Shown piece by piece: positions 7,384 through 47,955 of a stretch of DNA of 64,000 bases (the stretch's first letter is position 1; each line of letters opens with the position of its first letter). Below the pieces are notes generated by a model. It was given only the letters and a program-made list of their open reading frames with translations, did not search any database and had not been told where the DNA came from. A program made the position numbers and the translations under genes. This stretch comes from Methanomassiliicoccales archaeon (GTDB taxonomy: Archaea > Thermoplasmatota > Thermoplasmata > Methanomassiliicoccales > UBA472): contig CP058896.1 of assembly GCA_013415865.1 (NCBI GenBank), forward strand, positions 124,001 through 188,000. Reading direction: 5' to 3'.

Positions 7384-10300
7384 ATGATAAAGCCAGTCCA
7401 AGGCAATTACAATCCTGTCGAACTCGAGAAACAGATAAGGGAGCAATGGAAAGAGACCGATGCATACAAAAAGACCAAGGAATTCAGGTCCACGGGTCCT
7501 GACTACTACTTTGTCGATGGTCCGCCATACACAACGGGGTCTATCCACCTCGGAACGACCTGGAACAAGACGATAAAAGACACTATAATTCGTTTTCGAA
7601 GGATGCAGAGATATAACGTCTTTGATAAACCTGGCTACGACATGCATGGCCTTCCCATCGAGGTAAAGGTGGAGCAGTCGATAGGGGTCAAGAACAAGAA
7701 AGAGATCGAGGAGTACGGGATCGACCGCTTCGTCTCCACCTGCAAGAACTTTGCCGTGGAATTCCAAAGAAAGATGAACGAACAGTTCAAAGAGCTCGGG
7801 GTATGGATGGACTGGGACAACCCGTACCTAACCATCGCACCATATTACATCGAAGCGGCATGGTGGACGCTCAAGAAAGCATATGACAAGGGACTTCTGG
7901 TATCTGCAGACCGCGTTCTGCCCTGCTGTCCGAGGTGCGAGACCGCCCTGGCCGAGGCCGAGATAAATTATTCAGATGAAAAGGACCCGTCGATCTATGT
8001 CAAGTTCCCGCTCAAGGACGACCCCAAGGTCTTCCTACTGATCTGGACCACTACACCATGGACCCTTCCGGCCAACCTTGCGGTCGCGGCCCATCCCGAT
8101 TTTAAATATATCAAGGCTAGGTACCGAAGGATCGGAGAGACCGAGACGGTCATAGTGATGAAAGATCTGGCTGACCAGATAGGAGAGATCGCAGGCTGGG
8201 AACAATATGAGATATTGGAAGAGATAGAAGGAGATGACCTGGTCGGGTTGGAGTACGCCTCGATATTCGAGGAATTGGTCCCCTATCAAAAGAACGTATC
8301 AGGCAAATGGGTCCACAGGGTCATCGCCTCTAAGACGGTGGAGGCCTCCAATACAGGCCTCGTCCATATAGCTCCTGGTTTTGGACCTGAGGACTTCGAG
8401 CTTGGCCGAGAATATGGAATAGAACCTTTCTGTCCGGTCGATGAAACTGGTAAGTACACAAAGGATATTGGTGAAACATTGGCCGGCATGTCAATCAAAA
8501 AGGCCAACCAAATGATCTTGAAGAACCTTGAGGACAGGGGCCTTCTGTTTTCCAACTCGACCATCGAGCATAGGTACGGTCATTGCTGGCGCTGCAACTC
8601 GCCGATATTGTTCAGGACGACAAACCAATGGTTCCTGAAGGTCACCCAGGTAAAGAATCAGATGCTAGAGGAGATCGATAGGATCAGGTGGACCCCAGAT
8701 TGGGCCGGCTCCTCGAGGGAATATGATTGGGTCATGAACGCGAGGGACTGGTGCATCTCAAGACAGAGATATTGGGGCATACCCATCCCCGTCTGGACCT
8801 GCTCGAAATGCGGTGAGATAAAGGTGATAGCCACCGCAGATGACCTGGAGAAGGGCAGCGGTTACAGAAAGGATATGGACCTCCATAGGCCATGGATCGA
8901 CGGGGTCACATTTACTTGTCCTAAATGCTCATCAACGATGAGACGCGTGCCTGACGTGCTGGACGTATGGTTCGATTCCGCCGTGGCTTCCTGGGCCCAA
9001 TTGGGCTATCCTCGGAAGCGGTCGGAGTTCGATAGGCTATGGCCGGCCAAGTGGATAGCTGAAGGCCATGACCAGACCAGAGGTTGGTTCTATTCACAAT
9101 TGGCGGCGGGCGTGCTGGCTTTCGGAAGGGCACCTTACGAGTCCGTCCTGATGGTAGGATGGATGTTGGACCCGCAAGGTCTGCCAATGTCAAAAAGCCG
9201 TGGAAATGTCATCGAGCCAGAAAAGGTCGTCAAGGACTATGGTGCAGATGCTCTTCGATTTTATCTCCTAAGATCTTCGGCACCTTGGGAAGATATATCG
9301 TTCCAGATGGAAGGTGTGAAGAACGCCAGAAAGATGTTGAATGTACTGTGGAACGTCGTGAACTTTGCGACCACATATATGTCGATAGATAATTTCGAGA
9401 GGCAAAAGGTCGACGATGACCAGATATTCGCACATCTCAAGCCCGAGGACCGATGGATGATCTCCAGGACAGAGCGTATGAAGAACGAGGTCACAAGGGA
9501 CCTCAGCGCATACGACCTCCACAAGGCAACAAGGGCATTGGAGGAGTTCGTCCTCAATGACCTATCAAGATGGTATGTGCGGCTCATCCGTGACAGAATG
9601 TGGAAAGAGGAAGGGGACATAGACAAGGTCACGGCATATGTTGTTCTCTATGACACCTTGATGTCGTTGAATGCTATGTTAGCACCAATATGTCCGCATA
9701 TAACTGAACGCATCTACGCTCACCTTGATGGAGCGAGAGAGACCGTCCATATGTTGGACTGGCCGGTAGCGGACCTAACGAAGATCGATGACCGTCTGGA
9801 AGCGGCGATGAACGTCGTCATGGAGGTCGTGGAGATCATCACGAGGGAAAGGCAGAATAAGAACATGAAGCTGCGTTGGCCATTGAAGAGGATGATCCTT
9901 CTTCCGTCAACTACCGATTCGCTCGAATCGTTGAAGCAACTTGAGGACATCCTATTGCCGCAGGCGAACGTCAAGAGCATAGAGTATGTCGCACCAGGGG
10001 AAGAATGGAGCGAGAGCATCCTCAACGTAATCCCGAACCCGAACGCCATAGGAAAGGTCTATAGGCAATGGGCGAGCAAGATCGCGGTACTATTGAGATC
10101 AAGACCAGCCAAGCTTGTCAAGGAGAGCATTGGGAAGGGAGAATACACCTTGGGCATCGAAGGGCAGTTCATAAAGATAGAGCCTAACATGGTGTCCTTT
10201 GAGACCACCCTTCCAGAGCATGTGGTTGCTGTAAAATATTCTGGTGGTGAGATCTACCTTGATTTTGAGATTACTCCGGAGATAGAAGCGGAAGGATATT

Positions 10301-11634
10301 CGAGAGAGGTCATCAGACGTATCCAGCAGATGAGAAAAGACATGAAGCTTGACGTCGAGGAATATATCGCGGTCGAGATAGCCGCACCTGTCAAGATCGA
10401 AGAGTACTTGAAGATATGGCAGGAGCATATTATGTCAGAGGTCCGCGCTAGAAAGTTCCAGTTCTTCCTCGAACCAAAAGGAGAATATAAGATAAATTGG
10501 GAGATCGAGGGTGAAAAGCTTGAGATTGCAATTACCTCCCTCCACATCAAGGAGGCCGTCGAAGAGCTCATGAAGATCCCTGGGATGGTTGCGAAGAATG
10601 CGGTCTTATTGGTCGAGGCGGGCTATCGGACAATAGATTCGCTCAGAGGGATCAGCGAAGAGAAGCTATGTGAGGTCGACGGACTTCCAAAGAACGATGC
10701 CAAGAAGATAGTTCATGTGTTGACCAGGTCAACAAGCGTTGTTGCTAAATGCGAGAAATGTGGTTCTGAGCTCAACGAGAAAGGGACCTGTGACAAATGT
10801 ACATGCACAGACCTAGTTCTATCCCCCCTCCCAAAAGAGAAGATGATGAATGTACTTCTCCGCATACCCAGAATGAATAAGGTGAAGGCCGAGCTGGTGT
10901 TCGATGCGGGATATAATTCTTTAGGCAAATTGAGATCGGCGAGCAAAGAAAACCTTCAGGCCATAAATGGGCTAGGGTCGAGGACGATCGAAAGCATAGT
11001 ATCATATGTCCAGGAAGGTGGATTGGAGAAATGCGTCCTTTGTAGAAAATGCGGGGCAAGCATCGGACCGGACATGCTCGCATGTCCATCTTGTTCGACG
11101 CCCGTTACGTCAGAGCAGGACGAAGAAGACATCGGACCTCAGAAGGTTGAGCAAAAGACCGAGCCTACGAGGAAAGGAATAGAAGAATTGGAGAGATCGT
11201 TCACCTACCTCATCAAGGAAGAAAAACCGGAAAAGGCCTACGAATTCTTCGAGAAGGAGATCAAAAAGGGTTCCAAGGGTTTCTGCGTGACCAGGAACTA
11301 TCCTGTTAAGATCAAGGCCAAATATGATATTGGCGACACCCCAATGATATGGTTATCCAATGTGGGTAAGGAAAGCTCATTGAGACCGAAGGACCTTGAG
11401 AAACTATCCTATTCGTTGGAACAGTTCTTATCATCCAGCGGAGGCATCATTTTGCTTGATGGTCTAGAATATTTGATAACCAACAACAATTTCCTGACCG
11501 TGCTCAGGTTCGTCCAATCATTAAGGGACCAGGTAGCGATAAACCATTCAATATTATTGATGGCGTTGAACCCTTCGACCCTAGACCCCCATGAGCTGAA
11601 CCTACTCGAGAAAGAGGTTGATGGGACCATCTGA
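7384..11634 (+). CDS. ileS: Isoleucyl-tRNA synthetase with an HhH/zinc-ribbon/DUF835 C-terminal extension
   Basis: Residues 1 to about 1050 are a complete class I IleRS: the HIGH-type motif SIHLG at 53-57, the editing domain (TTTPWTLPANLAVA), zinc-binding Cys pairs, ARDWCISRQRYWGIPIP, and KMSKS-type PMSKSRGN near 602, then the anticodon-binding region. The family normally ends near here. This protein continues for about 360 residues: helix-hairpin-helix (about 1055-1115), zinc ribbon CEKCGSELNEKGTCDKC (about 1121-1137), a second HhH (about 1150-1215), a second zinc ribbon CRKCGASIGPDMLACPSC (about 1219-1237), a charged linker, and a DUF835 domain (about 1270-1410) with GFCVTRNYP, MIWLSN and IILLDGLEYLITNNNF. 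The frame is unbroken and codon use looks uniform, so the tail is a real fusion in this sequence. Confidence 0.95.
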   Translation: MIKPVQGNYNPVELEKQIREQWKETDAYKKTKEFRSTGPDYYFVDGPPYTTGSIHLGTTWNKTIKDTIIRFRRMQRYNVFDKPGYDMHGLPIEVKVEQSIGVKNKKEIEEYGIDRFVSTCKNFAVEFQRKMNEQFKELGVWMDWDNPYLTIAPYYIEAAWWTLKKAYDKGLLVSADRVLPCCPRCETALAEAEINYSDEKDPSIYVKFPLKDDPKVFLLIWTTTPWTLPANLAVAAHPDFKYIKARYRRIGETETVIVMKDLADQIGEIAGWEQYEILEEIEGDDLVGLEYASIFEELVPYQKNVSGKWVHRVIASKTVEASNTGLVHIAPGFGPEDFELGREYGIEPFCPVDETGKYTKDIGETLAGMSIKKANQMILKNLEDRGLLFSNSTIEHRYGHCWRCNSPILFRTTNQWFLKVTQVKNQMLEEIDRIRWTPDWAGSSREYDWVMNARDWCISRQRYWGIPIPVWTCSKCGEIKVIATADDLEKGSGYRKDMDLHRPWIDGVTFTCPKCSSTMRRVPDVLDVWFDSAVASWAQLGYPRKRSEFDRLWPAKWIAEGHDQTRGWFYSQLAAGVLAFGRAPYESVLMVGWMLDPQGLPMSKSRGNVIEPEKVVKDYGADALRFYLLRSSAPWEDISFQMEGVKNARKMLNVLWNVVNFATTYMSIDNFERQKVDDDQIFAHLKPEDRWMISRTERMKNEVTRDLSAYDLHKATRALEEFVLNDLSRWYVRLIRDRMWKEEGDIDKVTAYVVLYDTLMSLNAMLAPICPHITERIYAHLDGARETVHMLDWPVADLTKIDDRLEAAMNVVMEVVEIITRERQNKNMKLRWPLKRMILLPSTTDSLESLKQLEDILLPQANVKSIEYVAPGEEWSESILNVIPNPNAIGKVYRQWASKIAVLLRSRPAKLVKESIGKGEYTLGIEGQFIKIEPNMVSFETTLPEHVVAVKYSGGEIYLDFEITPEIEAEGYSREVIRRIQQMRKDMKLDVEEYIAVEIAAPVKIEEYLKIWQEHIMSEVRARKFQFFLEPKGEYKINWEIEGEKLEIAITSLHIKEAVEELMKIPGMVAKNAVLLVEAGYRTIDSLRGISEEKLCEVDGLPKNDAKKIVHVLTRSTSVVAKCEKCGSELNEKGTCDKCTCTDLVLSPLPKEKMMNVLLRIPRMNKVKAELVFDAGYNSLGKLRSASKENLQAINGLGSRTIESIVSYVQEGGLEKCVLCRKCGASIGPDMLACPSCSTPVTSEQDEEDIGPQKVEQKTEPTRKGIEELERSFTYLIKEEKPEKAYEFFEKEIKKGSKGFCVTRNYPVKIKAKYDIGDTPMIWLSNVGKESSLRPKDLEKLSYSLEQFLSSSGGIILLDGLEYLITNNNFLTVLRFVQSLRDQVAINHSILLMALNPSTLDPHELNLLEKEVDGTI

Positions 11635-36380: not shown

Positions 36381-36648
36381 TCGGAGGGCCGCTTTTTCAG
36401 CGGATTCTGCGATTCGGGACTCTATCAAATAGGTCAAATTTCCAACGACCACCTATTTTCTGATACCTGGCACAATATATATTTTATTAAAATGATGATT
36501 TTTAACTATTTTGTCAACATTTAAAAATTATGAAAAATTTACTTTTTATTCGCTATTTTAACGCTATTATCTTCATCATATGTCATTTCAGCGAATAATG
36601 AACTTGTACTCACATGTGCAAAATTCCAATAATTAGGAGGGAGTGAAG

Positions 36649-37131
36649 ATGGATTTCAAAAGCGGCAAGATGTACCTTATCGAAGAAAGGGTCCCTTTGA
36701 GGACGCACCAGTTTTTAAGAAAAGAGTTGGCGAAGGGGAGGCCGGCCCTATATATCTCAAAACATTCACCTGCTCAATTGATGATGCAGTTCACAAACCT
36801 CCATGAACCTTTAACGACCAAGTGGCTTTCACCTAGGCCAGACGATGATTGCATACCTCCGATGAATCTAAAGATATTCGAGGAATACCTTCACAGTTTC
36901 CTTGCTAAAAATGAGAATGGGATCATAATATTGAACGGGATGGATGTTCTGGAGATGTGGAATGGCTTCAAACCGGTCCTCAAAGTAATAAAAAAGGCAC
37001 GAGAAAAGGTAGGAGAGAATGGGGCCAGTAATTTCATTATAAGTCTCGATCCCAAGAACCACTATGATAAGCAATTGGCCGAACTTGAGAGGGTGTCGGA
37101 CGAGGTGGTTGTCAGCAATACTGAGGCCTGA
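36649..37131 (+). CDS. Stand-alone DUF835 protein
   Basis: The roughly 160-residue protein is a single DUF835 domain: GRPALYISKHSPAQL, TTKWLSPRPDDDCIPPMNL, then GIIILNGMDVLEMWNGF and FIISLDPKNHYDKQLAEL. The same order of strands occurs in the IleRS tail and in the two DUF835 genes near 47 kb. The hydrophobic strand ending in Asp/Asn-Gly resembles a Walker B region, but no Walker A is present, so NTP hydrolysis is not predicted. I use the ATG at 36649, seven bases after TAGGAGGG; an upstream GTG at 36643 would be too close. A 268-base AT-rich gap precedes it. Confidence 0.85.
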   Translation: MDFKSGKMYLIEERVPLRTHQFLRKELAKGRPALYISKHSPAQLMMQFTNLHEPLTTKWLSPRPDDDCIPPMNLKIFEEYLHSFLAKNENGIIILNGMDVLEMWNGFKPVLKVIKKAREKVGENGASNFIISLDPKNHYDKQLAELERVSDEVVVSNTEA

Positions 37132-45962: not shown

Positions 45963-46874
45963 TTGAAGGCCATCATCGTTCATGGAGGTGCTTGGAACAT
46001 TCCTGAGGAACTGCATGAGGCTCATATCAAGGGGTGTGCAAAGGCCGTCGATATCGGATATGACCTACTTAGGTCAGGGAGTGGTTCGTTAGAGGCGGTT
46101 TATGCCGCGGTCGAGTTCATGGAATCTGACTGCACTTTCGATGCTGGGTGTGGTTCATTCCTCAATGCTGCGGGGGAAGTGGAGATGGATGCGATAATCA
46201 TGAACGGTAGGACGCTCGAACTAGGAAGCGTCGCTGCCATAAAGAACGTCAGGCATCCGATCTCTGTGGCGCGGATGGTCATGGAAAGAACAAAACATTG
46301 TATGCTGGTCGGTGAAGGGGCAACAAAATTTGCAAACAGCGTGGGGATAGAGCTTATTCCGACCGAAGAGCTGGTCTCGCCTAGAGAGCTGGAAAGATGG
46401 AAGATGATACGCTCGACAGGCTCATATGAACAAAAGGACTCGTTCACCTCGTTCAAAGAAGGACCTATGGGCACGGTCGGTGCGGTCGCGATCGATGATG
46501 AGGGGGACATATGTGTTGCAACATCGACGGGGGGGACGCCCAACAAGATGGTCGGTCGGGTCGGCGATTCCCCGTTGGTAGGATGTGGTACCTATGCTGA
46601 CAACCATTCAGCAGGTGTCTCGGCCACCGGCTTTGGTGAGGCCCTGATGAAGATTTGTATCGCCAGAAGGATATGCTGTAATGTTGAGAAAGGTATGGAT
46701 GCGCCAACAGCCGCCTATGAAGCAATAAGGTATTTGGCGGATAGGGTCGATGGGCATGGGGGGGTCGTGGTCATTGATAAAAAAGGGAATATTGGATATC
46801 ATTTCAATACACCAAGGATGGCGATAGCGTATGTTGATAAGGACGGAAAAAGAACGTCAACGGTCTTAAAGTGA
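45963..46874 (+). CDS. Isoaspartyl peptidase/L-asparaginase (Ntn-hydrolase)
   Basis: The protein cleaves itself at a Thr and hydrolyses isoaspartyl peptides or asparagine. It shows KAIIVHGGAWNIPEELHE at the start, DAGCGSFLNAAGEVEMDA, the nucleophile region GPMGTVGAVAIDDEGDICVATSTGG (Thr of GTVGAV) and GVSATGFGEALMK. I use TTG at 45963, four bases after GGTGAGG; the frame is open from 45873 (overlapping trpB), but those 30 residues are hydrophobic and not part of the fold. It thus has about 303 residues, normal for the family. Confidence 0.9.
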   Translation: MKAIIVHGGAWNIPEELHEAHIKGCAKAVDIGYDLLRSGSGSLEAVYAAVEFMESDCTFDAGCGSFLNAAGEVEMDAIIMNGRTLELGSVAAIKNVRHPISVARMVMERTKHCMLVGEGATKFANSVGIELIPTEELVSPRELERWKMIRSTGSYEQKDSFTSFKEGPMGTVGAVAIDDEGDICVATSTGGTPNKMVGRVGDSPLVGCGTYADNHSAGVSATGFGEALMKICIARRICCNVEKGMDAPTAAYEAIRYLADRVDGHGGVVVIDKKGNIGYHFNTPRMAIAYVDKDGKRTSTVLK

Positions 46875-47461
46875 ATCATATTATATTTCATACCCTATTA
46901 TTGAATAATTTGTATAGTTGGGAAGTGAGAAGAACGACGGCAGATGCTTTTTCATTCACCCCGTCCAGGATAGCAAATGTGACCCTACCATTGGCAAAGG
47001 GGAACGTGACCTTGGACTATGGAATGACATATATCATTCCGAATGAGAGCATGGAGATGTCGTTGGAGATAATATCAAAGCTCACGCTCATGACAGATGA
47101 CATTATATGCCTCTCAAGGATGCATCCATCACACATCGCTGAAAGATGGCCTTCGGCAAAGATAAGATCCTATTGGCTGACTCAAAGGGCGGGGGAAGGG
47201 AATGTTTCACCGGACCAGCCATCAGCTGTAAAAGGCGTCCTCGAATCATTCATGAGGAAAAAAGGTGGCGCGGTCGCAATATTGGACGGCTTCGAGCATC
47301 TCTCTGTATATAACAATTTTCACATTCTTAACGTCATGTTCGAGGAGCTTAACGATGTCGTCATGGAGACGCGGTCAATCCTTTTGGTACCTCTAGATCC
47401 AAGGTCTCTTGATGAGATGTCACTTGCGAGGCTCCGGAGATTTGCCGAGATCGTTCTTTGA
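46871..47461 (+). CDS. DUF835 protein
   Basis: The protein of up to 196 residues has DUF835 elements in its second half: DIICLSRMHPSHIAERW, SYWLTQRAGEGNVSP, VAILDGFEHLSVYNNF and ILLVPLDPRSLDEMSL. The N-terminal 60-70 residues are unlike the family. The GTG at 46871 overlaps the asparaginase stop, but a TATA-like run just after it means a start at TTG 46910 or GTG 46925 is also plausible. A second DUF835 gene faces it tail to tail. Confidence 0.75.
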   Translation: MNHIIFHTLLLNNLYSWEVRRTTADAFSFTPSRIANVTLPLAKGNVTLDYGMTYIIPNESMEMSLEIISKLTLMTDDIICLSRMHPSHIAERWPSAKIRSYWLTQRAGEGNVSPDQPSAVKGVLESFMRKKGGAVAILDGFEHLSVYNNFHILNVMFEELNDVVMETRSILLVPLDPRSLDEMSLARLRRFAEIVL

Positions 47462-47955
47462 TCAGAACCTCCGCTTCAACTTTAGGGAAAAAGCTCCAGA
47501 TCTTCTCGAGATCATTCTGTTCGAAGGCCAGTGGGTCCATGCTGACATATAGCTCCCCCCCCGTTGAGCTTCAGTTCTCTGCCCATCTCTTCCAATCCGA
47601 CCAAGACCCTCTTGATATCATTCCACAGTAGGAGATATTCCAGCCCATCCAGGAATACCATCGTCCTTTTACCTTTGCTTTCCTTCTTTATGCACTTGAC
47701 CAAGTGCGATACGCTTTTTGGGGATATGACATCTTTTCCTTTGTTGCCGGTCAACCAGAAGAATTTTGGCCCCGACAGATTAAATTTTTCCGAGACGTAC
47801 TCCGGATGAAGTCTAGATATGCATATGCTGTATGATCCGTCTGAGATCAGGTCCCCGAACGCTTTGAATCCTAGTCTCGGATATCCCTCGACTATCATCA
47901 CAACGTTCTTTTCACATCCATTAATTATCATTTGAGACACCTTTCCCATGTACAC
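47361..47955 (-). pseudogene. DUF835 gene with a frameshift at a poly-G run
   Basis: The open frame from 47955 encodes DUF835 elements YSICISRLHPEYVSEKF, FFWLTGNKGKDVISP and MVFLDGLEYLLLWNDI. It then reaches a run of eight G (plus strand C8 at 47555-47562 or so) and continues with 15 unrelated residues to a stop at 47512. Removing one G restores a DUF835-like end: ELYVSMDPLAFEQNDLEKIW and on to EAEVLIK, with a stop near 47361 that overlaps the convergent DUF835 gene by about 100 bases. The break could be a true mutation, slippage-based switching or a sequencing error in the homopolymer. The gene starts near an AT-rich divergent promoter shared with the STAND gene. Confidence 0.7.

Follow-up and report, generated by a model that had tools for sequence, protein, structure and literature searches.

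The 64,000-nucleotide stretch of DNA analyzed here, referred to as the window, originates from a Methanomassiliicoccales archaeon and encodes an isoleucyl-tRNA synthetase (IleRS) with a C-terminal tail that ends in a DUF835 domain. Fusions of IleRS and DUF835 recur in most families of the Methanomassiliicoccales and in many uncultured families of the Thermoplasmata, and in five of the latter (f12, f14, f16, f19, and f21) the tail appears to have outlived the catalytic activity of the enzyme that carries it. A plausible but still tentative explanation, which we hold with a little less than even confidence on the basis of sequence comparisons, is that the tail may serve as a signaling or adaptor module that links IleRS and tRNA-Ile to a network of DUF835 proteins.

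The IleRS gene (7384..11634, + strand) is a single uninterrupted open reading frame (ORF) of 1416 amino acids (aa) and encodes the sole IleRS of the genome, the remaining matches being other class I synthetases; this genome is represented by a single contig of 1.82 Mb and is 99.8% complete. The ORF matched the full-length ileS profile TIGR00392 with 968.7 bits (curated cutoff, 621.4), and its best matches in the Protein Data Bank (PDB) are all IleRS. Motif inspection revealed that the HIGH signature region (PPYTTGSIHLGTT, aa 47 to 59; 7522..7560, + strand), the CP1 editing-domain motif (IWTTTPWTLPANLAV, aa 220 to 234; 8041..8085, + strand), and the KMSKS loop (PMSKSRGNV, aa 601 to 609; 9184..9210, + strand) are intact, and the test for IleRS motifs detected PPYTTGSIHLG, PMSKS, and IWTTTPWTLP for HIGH, KMSKS, and CP1 editing, respectively. 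The Pfam domain tRNA-synt_1 covers aa 18 to 640 and is followed by the anticodon-binding domain Anticodon_1 (PF08264, 121.7 bits; aa 689 to 836; 9448..9891, + strand) and by DUF5915, the C-terminal domain of IleRS (PF19302, 84 bits; aa 855 to 1051; 9946..10536, + strand). With DUF5915, the ordinary enzyme is complete at aa 1051, and tailless relatives stop at about this position. To judge from its sequence, the window IleRS should be a normal, intact, and single-copy enzyme and not a dead paralogue of the LeuRS-I, HisZ, or Gcn2 type. The order of genes around it (ribulose-phosphate epimerase, FEN1, IleRS, and then two genes on the opposite strand) is common to many relatives, and no signaling gene was found in this conserved neighborhood, a point against the signaling explanation.

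Past aa ~1050, the tail is composed of a helix-hairpin-helix (HhH) module, a putative zinc ribbon, a second HhH module, a second putative zinc ribbon, and DUF835. A previous sequence-only reading of the window had proposed this domain list and its coordinates, with the enzyme proper ending at about residue 1050, and Pfam matches, cysteine motifs, and a structural model agree with it. The first HhH module (aa 1053 to 1116; 10540..10731, + strand) is defined by the second stretch of the HHH_5 match, a DUF4332 match, and five predicted helices at tail residues 3 to 66, and the second one (aa 1151 to 1210; 10834..11013, + strand) by a Pfam HHH_5 match at aa 1157 to 1207 and by helices in the model. 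Over its two stretches, HHH_5 scored 54.2 bits (cutoff, 27). The AlphaFold2 model of the tail (mean pLDDT of 89) shows two helical HhH bundles, with helices modeled at a pLDDT of about 95, and an alpha/beta domain. The first four-Cys ribbon (CEKC...CDKC, aa 1123 to 1139; 10750..10800, + strand) is missing in many relatives, and the second (aa 1220 to 1237; 11041..11094, + strand) has four cysteines that are invariant in 29 relatives; both scored below the Pfam cutoffs.

The DUF835 domain itself (PF05763, E value of 2.2e-33; aa 1279 to 1411; 11218..11616, + strand) scored 115.3 bits (gathering threshold, 33.1) and has a predicted KaiC/FlaH-like RecA fold. A model generated with AlphaFold2 from 65 IleRS-type DUF835 sequences had a pLDDT of 95, and a Foldseek search with this model against the PDB returned FlaH (4yds; E value of 5.8e-6, TMq of 0.70), the RecA-type ATPase PH0284 (TMq of 0.73 to 0.76), and cyanobacterial KaiC (about 0.6 to 0.7). 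The best 60 matches of a sequence search for solved structures included none for DUF835 and were confined to HhH. A Walker A motif ([AG]x4GK[ST]) was found in 0 of 79 IleRS tails. The tail thus combines a predicted KaiC/RecA fold with the loss of Walker A, the two features that define an inactivated KaiC (iKaiC) domain, and without Walker A it would not count as an active KaiC-type ATPase.

In the order of the window, the tail is present in families f1 to f4, in most of f5, and in genera g19 and g26 of f6, and it is missing in nearly all remaining members of f6, where IleRS has about 985 to 1078 aa, and in a few species of f5. Outside the order, fusions were found in the uncultured Thermoplasmata families f11, f12, f14, f16 to f21, f56, f58, f60, and f61, with ORFs of about 1240 to 2929 aa. 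Over the entire survey, the fused ORFs are mostly about 1240 to 1830 aa long and occur in dozens of independently assembled genomes, single-contig chromosomes included. The sequence-only reading had named an assembly error as what would refute the fusion; this survey shows how widespread the fusion is and leaves an assembly or frame error that joined two genes with a negligible probability. Nothing in the window genome speaks for such an error, and a tailed IleRS ORF that is split into frames (G009/L089) probably reflects poor sequence.

The full HhH-ribbon-HhH-ribbon-DUF835 architecture holds for the window IleRS but not as the general form, since it was found in a subset of the tails only. 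Among the 79 tailed ORFs, for which the presence of DUF835 was the criterion for inclusion, HhH was detected in 72 and missed in 7, at least one CxxC...CxxC ribbon was found in 48 and none in 31, and the spacer between the enzyme and DUF835 ranged from 41 to more than 500 residues; the tails of f18 consist of a short linker and DUF835. HhH modules and zinc ribbons as essential elements of the tail were consequently rejected, both being optional. Because HhH modules and ribbons vary whereas the DUF835 residues vary least, the general plan would be IleRS, a variable spacer, and DUF835, with the window architecture as one of its forms.

This variability bears on the idea, also part of the sequence-only reading, that the tail binds nucleic acid through its HhH modules and ribbons. 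According to such an explanation, these elements would make the enzyme bind tRNA-Ile or rRNA more tightly, with DUF835 doing no more than packing against them. It is consistent with the match of the tail HhH to the HhH domains of eL32, RadA, Hel308, and NusA, with the four cysteines of ribbon 2 that are invariant within the order Methanomassiliicoccales, and with the layout of the whole tail, in which HhH and a RecA fold are arranged as in RadA/RAD51. However, many tails, those of f18 included, do without ribbons or a detectable HhH, the conserved part is DUF835, and it is this domain that evolves most slowly in the catalytically decayed copies of f12 and f16 described below. An RNA-binding appendage as the function of the tail thus appears unlikely, and the original suggestion is weakened.

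DUF835 was the most conserved part of the tail across 29 tails, and its residues are nearly invariant in alignments of 61 to 65 sequences. In a tree of this short domain, IleRS-type DUF835 sequences form mostly one subfamily, set apart from the remaining DUF835 copies of the window genome, with several DUF835 proteins that stand alone or have other fusion partners also placed in it. Stand-alone DUF835 proteins of 159 to 175 aa in family f3 (L149, L150, and L151) share up to 57% identity with the IleRS tail domain and were apparently copied out of this subfamily. In the order-level survey, tailless species are nested within tailed ones, which implies at least four losses of the tail within the order. 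These losses and the very variable spacer would agree with a fusion that has no selected role and reflects tolerated domain accretion in the lineage. We consider this highly improbable in view of the near invariance of the DUF835 residues, the strong purifying selection wherever dS was measurable, and the survival of DUF835 in copies with decayed catalysis.

Two types of IleRS exist in the Thermoplasmata, namely, a type with PPYTTG...PMSKS-like motifs, which is tailed or secondarily tailless, and a tailless type with PPTANG...KMSKSKGNA. Tailed and tailless IleRS coexist in all 16 genomes examined from f12 (n = 2), f14 (n = 1), f16 (n = 4), f19 (n = 1), and f21 (n = 8). The KMSKS loop is gone in 16 of the 16 tailed copies (L120, L125, L127, L129, L130, L143, L146, and L158 to L166), and those of f21 and f14 have also lost the HIGH and editing motifs; all seven tailless partners that were fetched (L140, L141, L142, L144, L145, L147, and L148) are intact. 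Compared with the window enzyme, the Pfam scores of the decayed copies L125, L160, and L127 dropped from 428 to 152, 101, and 61 bits, respectively, for the catalytic domain and from 122 to 99, 87, and 95 bits for Anticodon_1, whereas those for DUF835 were 113, 115, and 116 bits against 115 bits. In accordance, the decayed copies of f21 share 36 to 38% identity in the catalytic domain and 45 to 50% in the anticodon-binding and C-terminal domains, which is the reverse of the order seen among intact enzymes (60 to 61% and 50%, respectively). The dN/dS ratio of the decayed copies was about 0.01 to 0.15, as determined from domain comparisons with unsaturated dS only; these copies are therefore under selection and not pseudogenes. 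Their slowest-evolving part is often DUF835. In the tree, the decayed copies group together weakly (support of 67) and on long branches, which is compatible with either a single or a repeated decay.

DUF835 is thus not eroded and Anticodon_1 far less eroded than the catalytic domain, which suggests that the tail outlives catalysis in these five families. At the sequence level, the decayed tailed copies would represent dead-synthetase paralogues beside an active copy, and we infer that they may still bind tRNA-Ile. The reverse pair was found in f11 (L138 and L167 to L174): here the tailed enzyme is the intact one, and it is the second, tailless copy that lacks KMSKS, in 9 of 9 genomes; decay of one copy is therefore not specific to the tailed one. 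The second IleRS of f20 was rejected as a further decayed copy, since GVHH, the motif that it carries, corresponds to the hyper-resistant type, which is active. These proteins (L175 and L176) constitute an archaeal second IleRS with GVHH, matching the noncanonical G/AXHH motif of mupirocin hyper-resistant bacterial IleRS2 (PMC10485003). Also in f20, a CARDB-repeat protein of 1983 aa (L179:5926-11874) is encoded directly upstream of the tailed IleRS, and it terminates in a free-standing version of the C-terminal domain of IleRS; this version is 31% identical to IleRS residues 819 to 1027 over 209 aa (E value of 2e-31). A protein of this CARDB type is also found upstream in L077, L080, L083, L084, and L088.

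The sequence-only reading had alternatively suggested that the tail tethers the synthetase to a DUF835 partner, and it had pointed to three further DUF835 genes in the window. These genes are real, and they encode a stand-alone divergent protein of 162 aa (36643..37131, + strand; G000:C1:160709-161092, E value of 1.7e-17), a divergent protein of 196 aa (46871..47461, + strand; G000:C1:171051-171440, E value of 2.1e-22), and a divergent partial protein of 147 aa (47512..47955, - strand; G000:C1:171590-171865, E value of 1.2e-15), which are possible members of a DUF835 network. Their role as special partners of IleRS is unsupported, since all three belong to the most divergent DUF835 proteins that the genome encodes and are unlinked to IleRS. 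The tether has nevertheless become the better lead, with a top candidate elsewhere in the genome, namely, a response regulator composed of a receiver domain and DUF835 (L001, G000:C1:1702029-1703069). Further DUF835 contexts in this genome include a V4R domain (L003) and others. DUF835 was not seen on other synthetases; the large DUF835 proteins of relatives are zinc-ribbon, extracellular-type, or DnaA-ATPase proteins. Among these, a DnaA-type ATPase domain fused to DUF835 (L105:1294-3516) in an archaeal metagenome-assembled genome is unusual for archaea, and two large zinc-ribbon proteins of f21 (L121:3309-5957 and L124:5125-7389), whose DUF835 has its closest counterpart in the decayed f21 IleRS, are possible partners of the latter.

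Within the order, an orthologue of the receiver-DUF835 regulator (E value of ≤1e-40) was detected in 41 of 44 tailed versus 3 of 74 tailless genomes, counts that were taken over related and thus phylogenetically nonindependent genomes. Among the tailed genomes with a completeness of at least 85%, the orthologue was present in 31 of 31, and tailed genome G142, in which just two receiver domains were detected, has the receiver-DUF835 protein among them. Of the at least four losses of the tail, only two, in derived f6 and in G016, are matched by a lost or strongly diverged regulator, and G010, G013, and G014 lost the tail and kept the regulator. Nearly all receivers were lost generally in derived f6. 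Genome reduction could explain the co-occurrence because derived f6 lost most of its receivers and sometimes keeps a diverged copy. An outright loss of the receiver-DUF835 protein in derived f6 was rejected, given that some genomes retain a strongly diverged copy and that the loss affected receivers generally. The receiver-DUF835-like proteins of some of these tailless genomes (L226 to L229) are very diverged, with scores of 40 to 72 bits versus about 260 to 550 bits for full-length orthologues.

We propose that the HhH and zinc-ribbon part would be a variable spacer that perhaps touches RNA, whereas DUF835, as a KaiC-type RecA fold without an ATP site, would be used for protein-protein contact. 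Via this domain, IleRS with its bound tRNA-Ile would be connected to the DUF835-based (inactivated KaiC) signaling network of archaea, where its most likely contact would be the accompanying receiver-DUF835 response regulator; the network could read the charging status or the isoleucine supply, or adjust IleRS. In lineages in which charging passed to a second IleRS, the tailed one would have lost catalysis and kept its tRNA-side domains and DUF835, becoming a dedicated tRNA-Ile sensor or adaptor. The retention of these parts on decayed copies suggests that the tail functions independently of catalysis by the same chain, and from this body of data we infer the protein contact of the tail and its role in signaling.

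A protein contact may also serve purposes other than signaling. DUF835 could drive the formation of an oligomer or a multienzyme complex or fix IleRS to the ribosome, the membrane, or another body. Appended IleRS domains of such action are known: vertebrate cytoplasmic IARS1 carries a C-terminal UNE-I domain, a tandem UBX that is used for protein contacts (PMC9643514), although UBX is unrelated to the HhH, ribbon, and DUF835 domains of the window protein and the lineage is different. Furthermore, DUF835 is predicted to belong to a RecA/KaiC fold class that often oligomerizes, close DUF835 relatives are found on proteins with extracellular-type domains (e.g., L100 to L102 and L126), and the conservation of the decayed copies fits a structural role equally well. 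Against a scaffold argue that the co-occurring protein is a receiver-DUF835 regulator, that the DUF835 domains of the genome sit on sensory and receiver domains, and that many close relatives, which necessarily charge tRNA-Ile normally, have no tail. We therefore regard a purely structural role as rather unlikely and retain the signaling or adaptor module as our working explanation.

The individual elements of the signaling proposal have been described separately. Galperin et al. (2018; PMC5847659) count DUF835 among the domains of response regulators and class it as an inactivated KaiC. Those REC-DUF835 proteins share with the tail the family PF05763, a predicted KaiC-like fold without Walker A, and their occurrence in Thermoplasmata, whereas here the domain is located at the C terminus of an aminoacyl-tRNA synthetase and belongs mostly to its own subfamily. 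Noncharging duplicates are exemplified by LeuRS-I of the Sulfolobaceae, which, according to a review of the original work, binds tRNA but does not aminoacylate it (Weitzel et al. 2020, reviewed in PMC9437257). It is an archaeal class I duplicate comparable to the decayed IleRS of f12, f14, f16, f19, and f21; it is a LeuRS and not an IleRS, is described without DUF835, and differs from the intact, single-copy IleRS of the window. IleRS2 (PMC10485003) consists of active resistance paralogues and shows that two IleRS types per genome are possible, as in f20, but none has been described with a DUF835 tail. In the open literature, a scope that leaves most subscription papers outside, we found neither an IleRS with a KaiC-type DUF835 tail, nor its retention on decayed copies, nor any aminoacyl-tRNA synthetase tied to an archaeal KaiC/DUF835 signaling domain, in line with the sequence-only reading, which knew of no such synthetase.

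A narrower form of the signaling or adaptor explanation is that Thermoplasmata possess an amino acid status sensor based on tRNA-Ile, in which the body of IleRS, catalytic in the Methanomassiliicoccales and noncatalytic in several uncultured families, would read tRNA-Ile and the DUF835 tail would report to the receiver-DUF835 regulator; we consider it speculative and doubtful. In eukaryotes, Gcn2 senses uncharged tRNA with a HisRS-like domain. Gcn2 and HisZ (PMC7373986) resemble the proposed sensor only in how they work, in that a synthetase fold without charging activity is coupled to a regulatory output; the tailed IleRS has no kinase domain, and that of the window is a normal enzyme. If the narrower form is true, the sensor would be an archaeal counterpart of uncharged-tRNA sensing by Gcn2, but one that uses another synthetase together with a KaiC-type module. 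The decayed tailed copies, in which the catalytic motifs are gone and the tail is kept, provide a natural experiment in this respect, and the receiver-DUF835 regulator is a specific candidate partner for DUF835, which is still a domain of unknown function in Pfam. Taken together, these data make testable the question of whether archaea may sense their tRNA or isoleucine status via a synthetase-linked DUF835 module.
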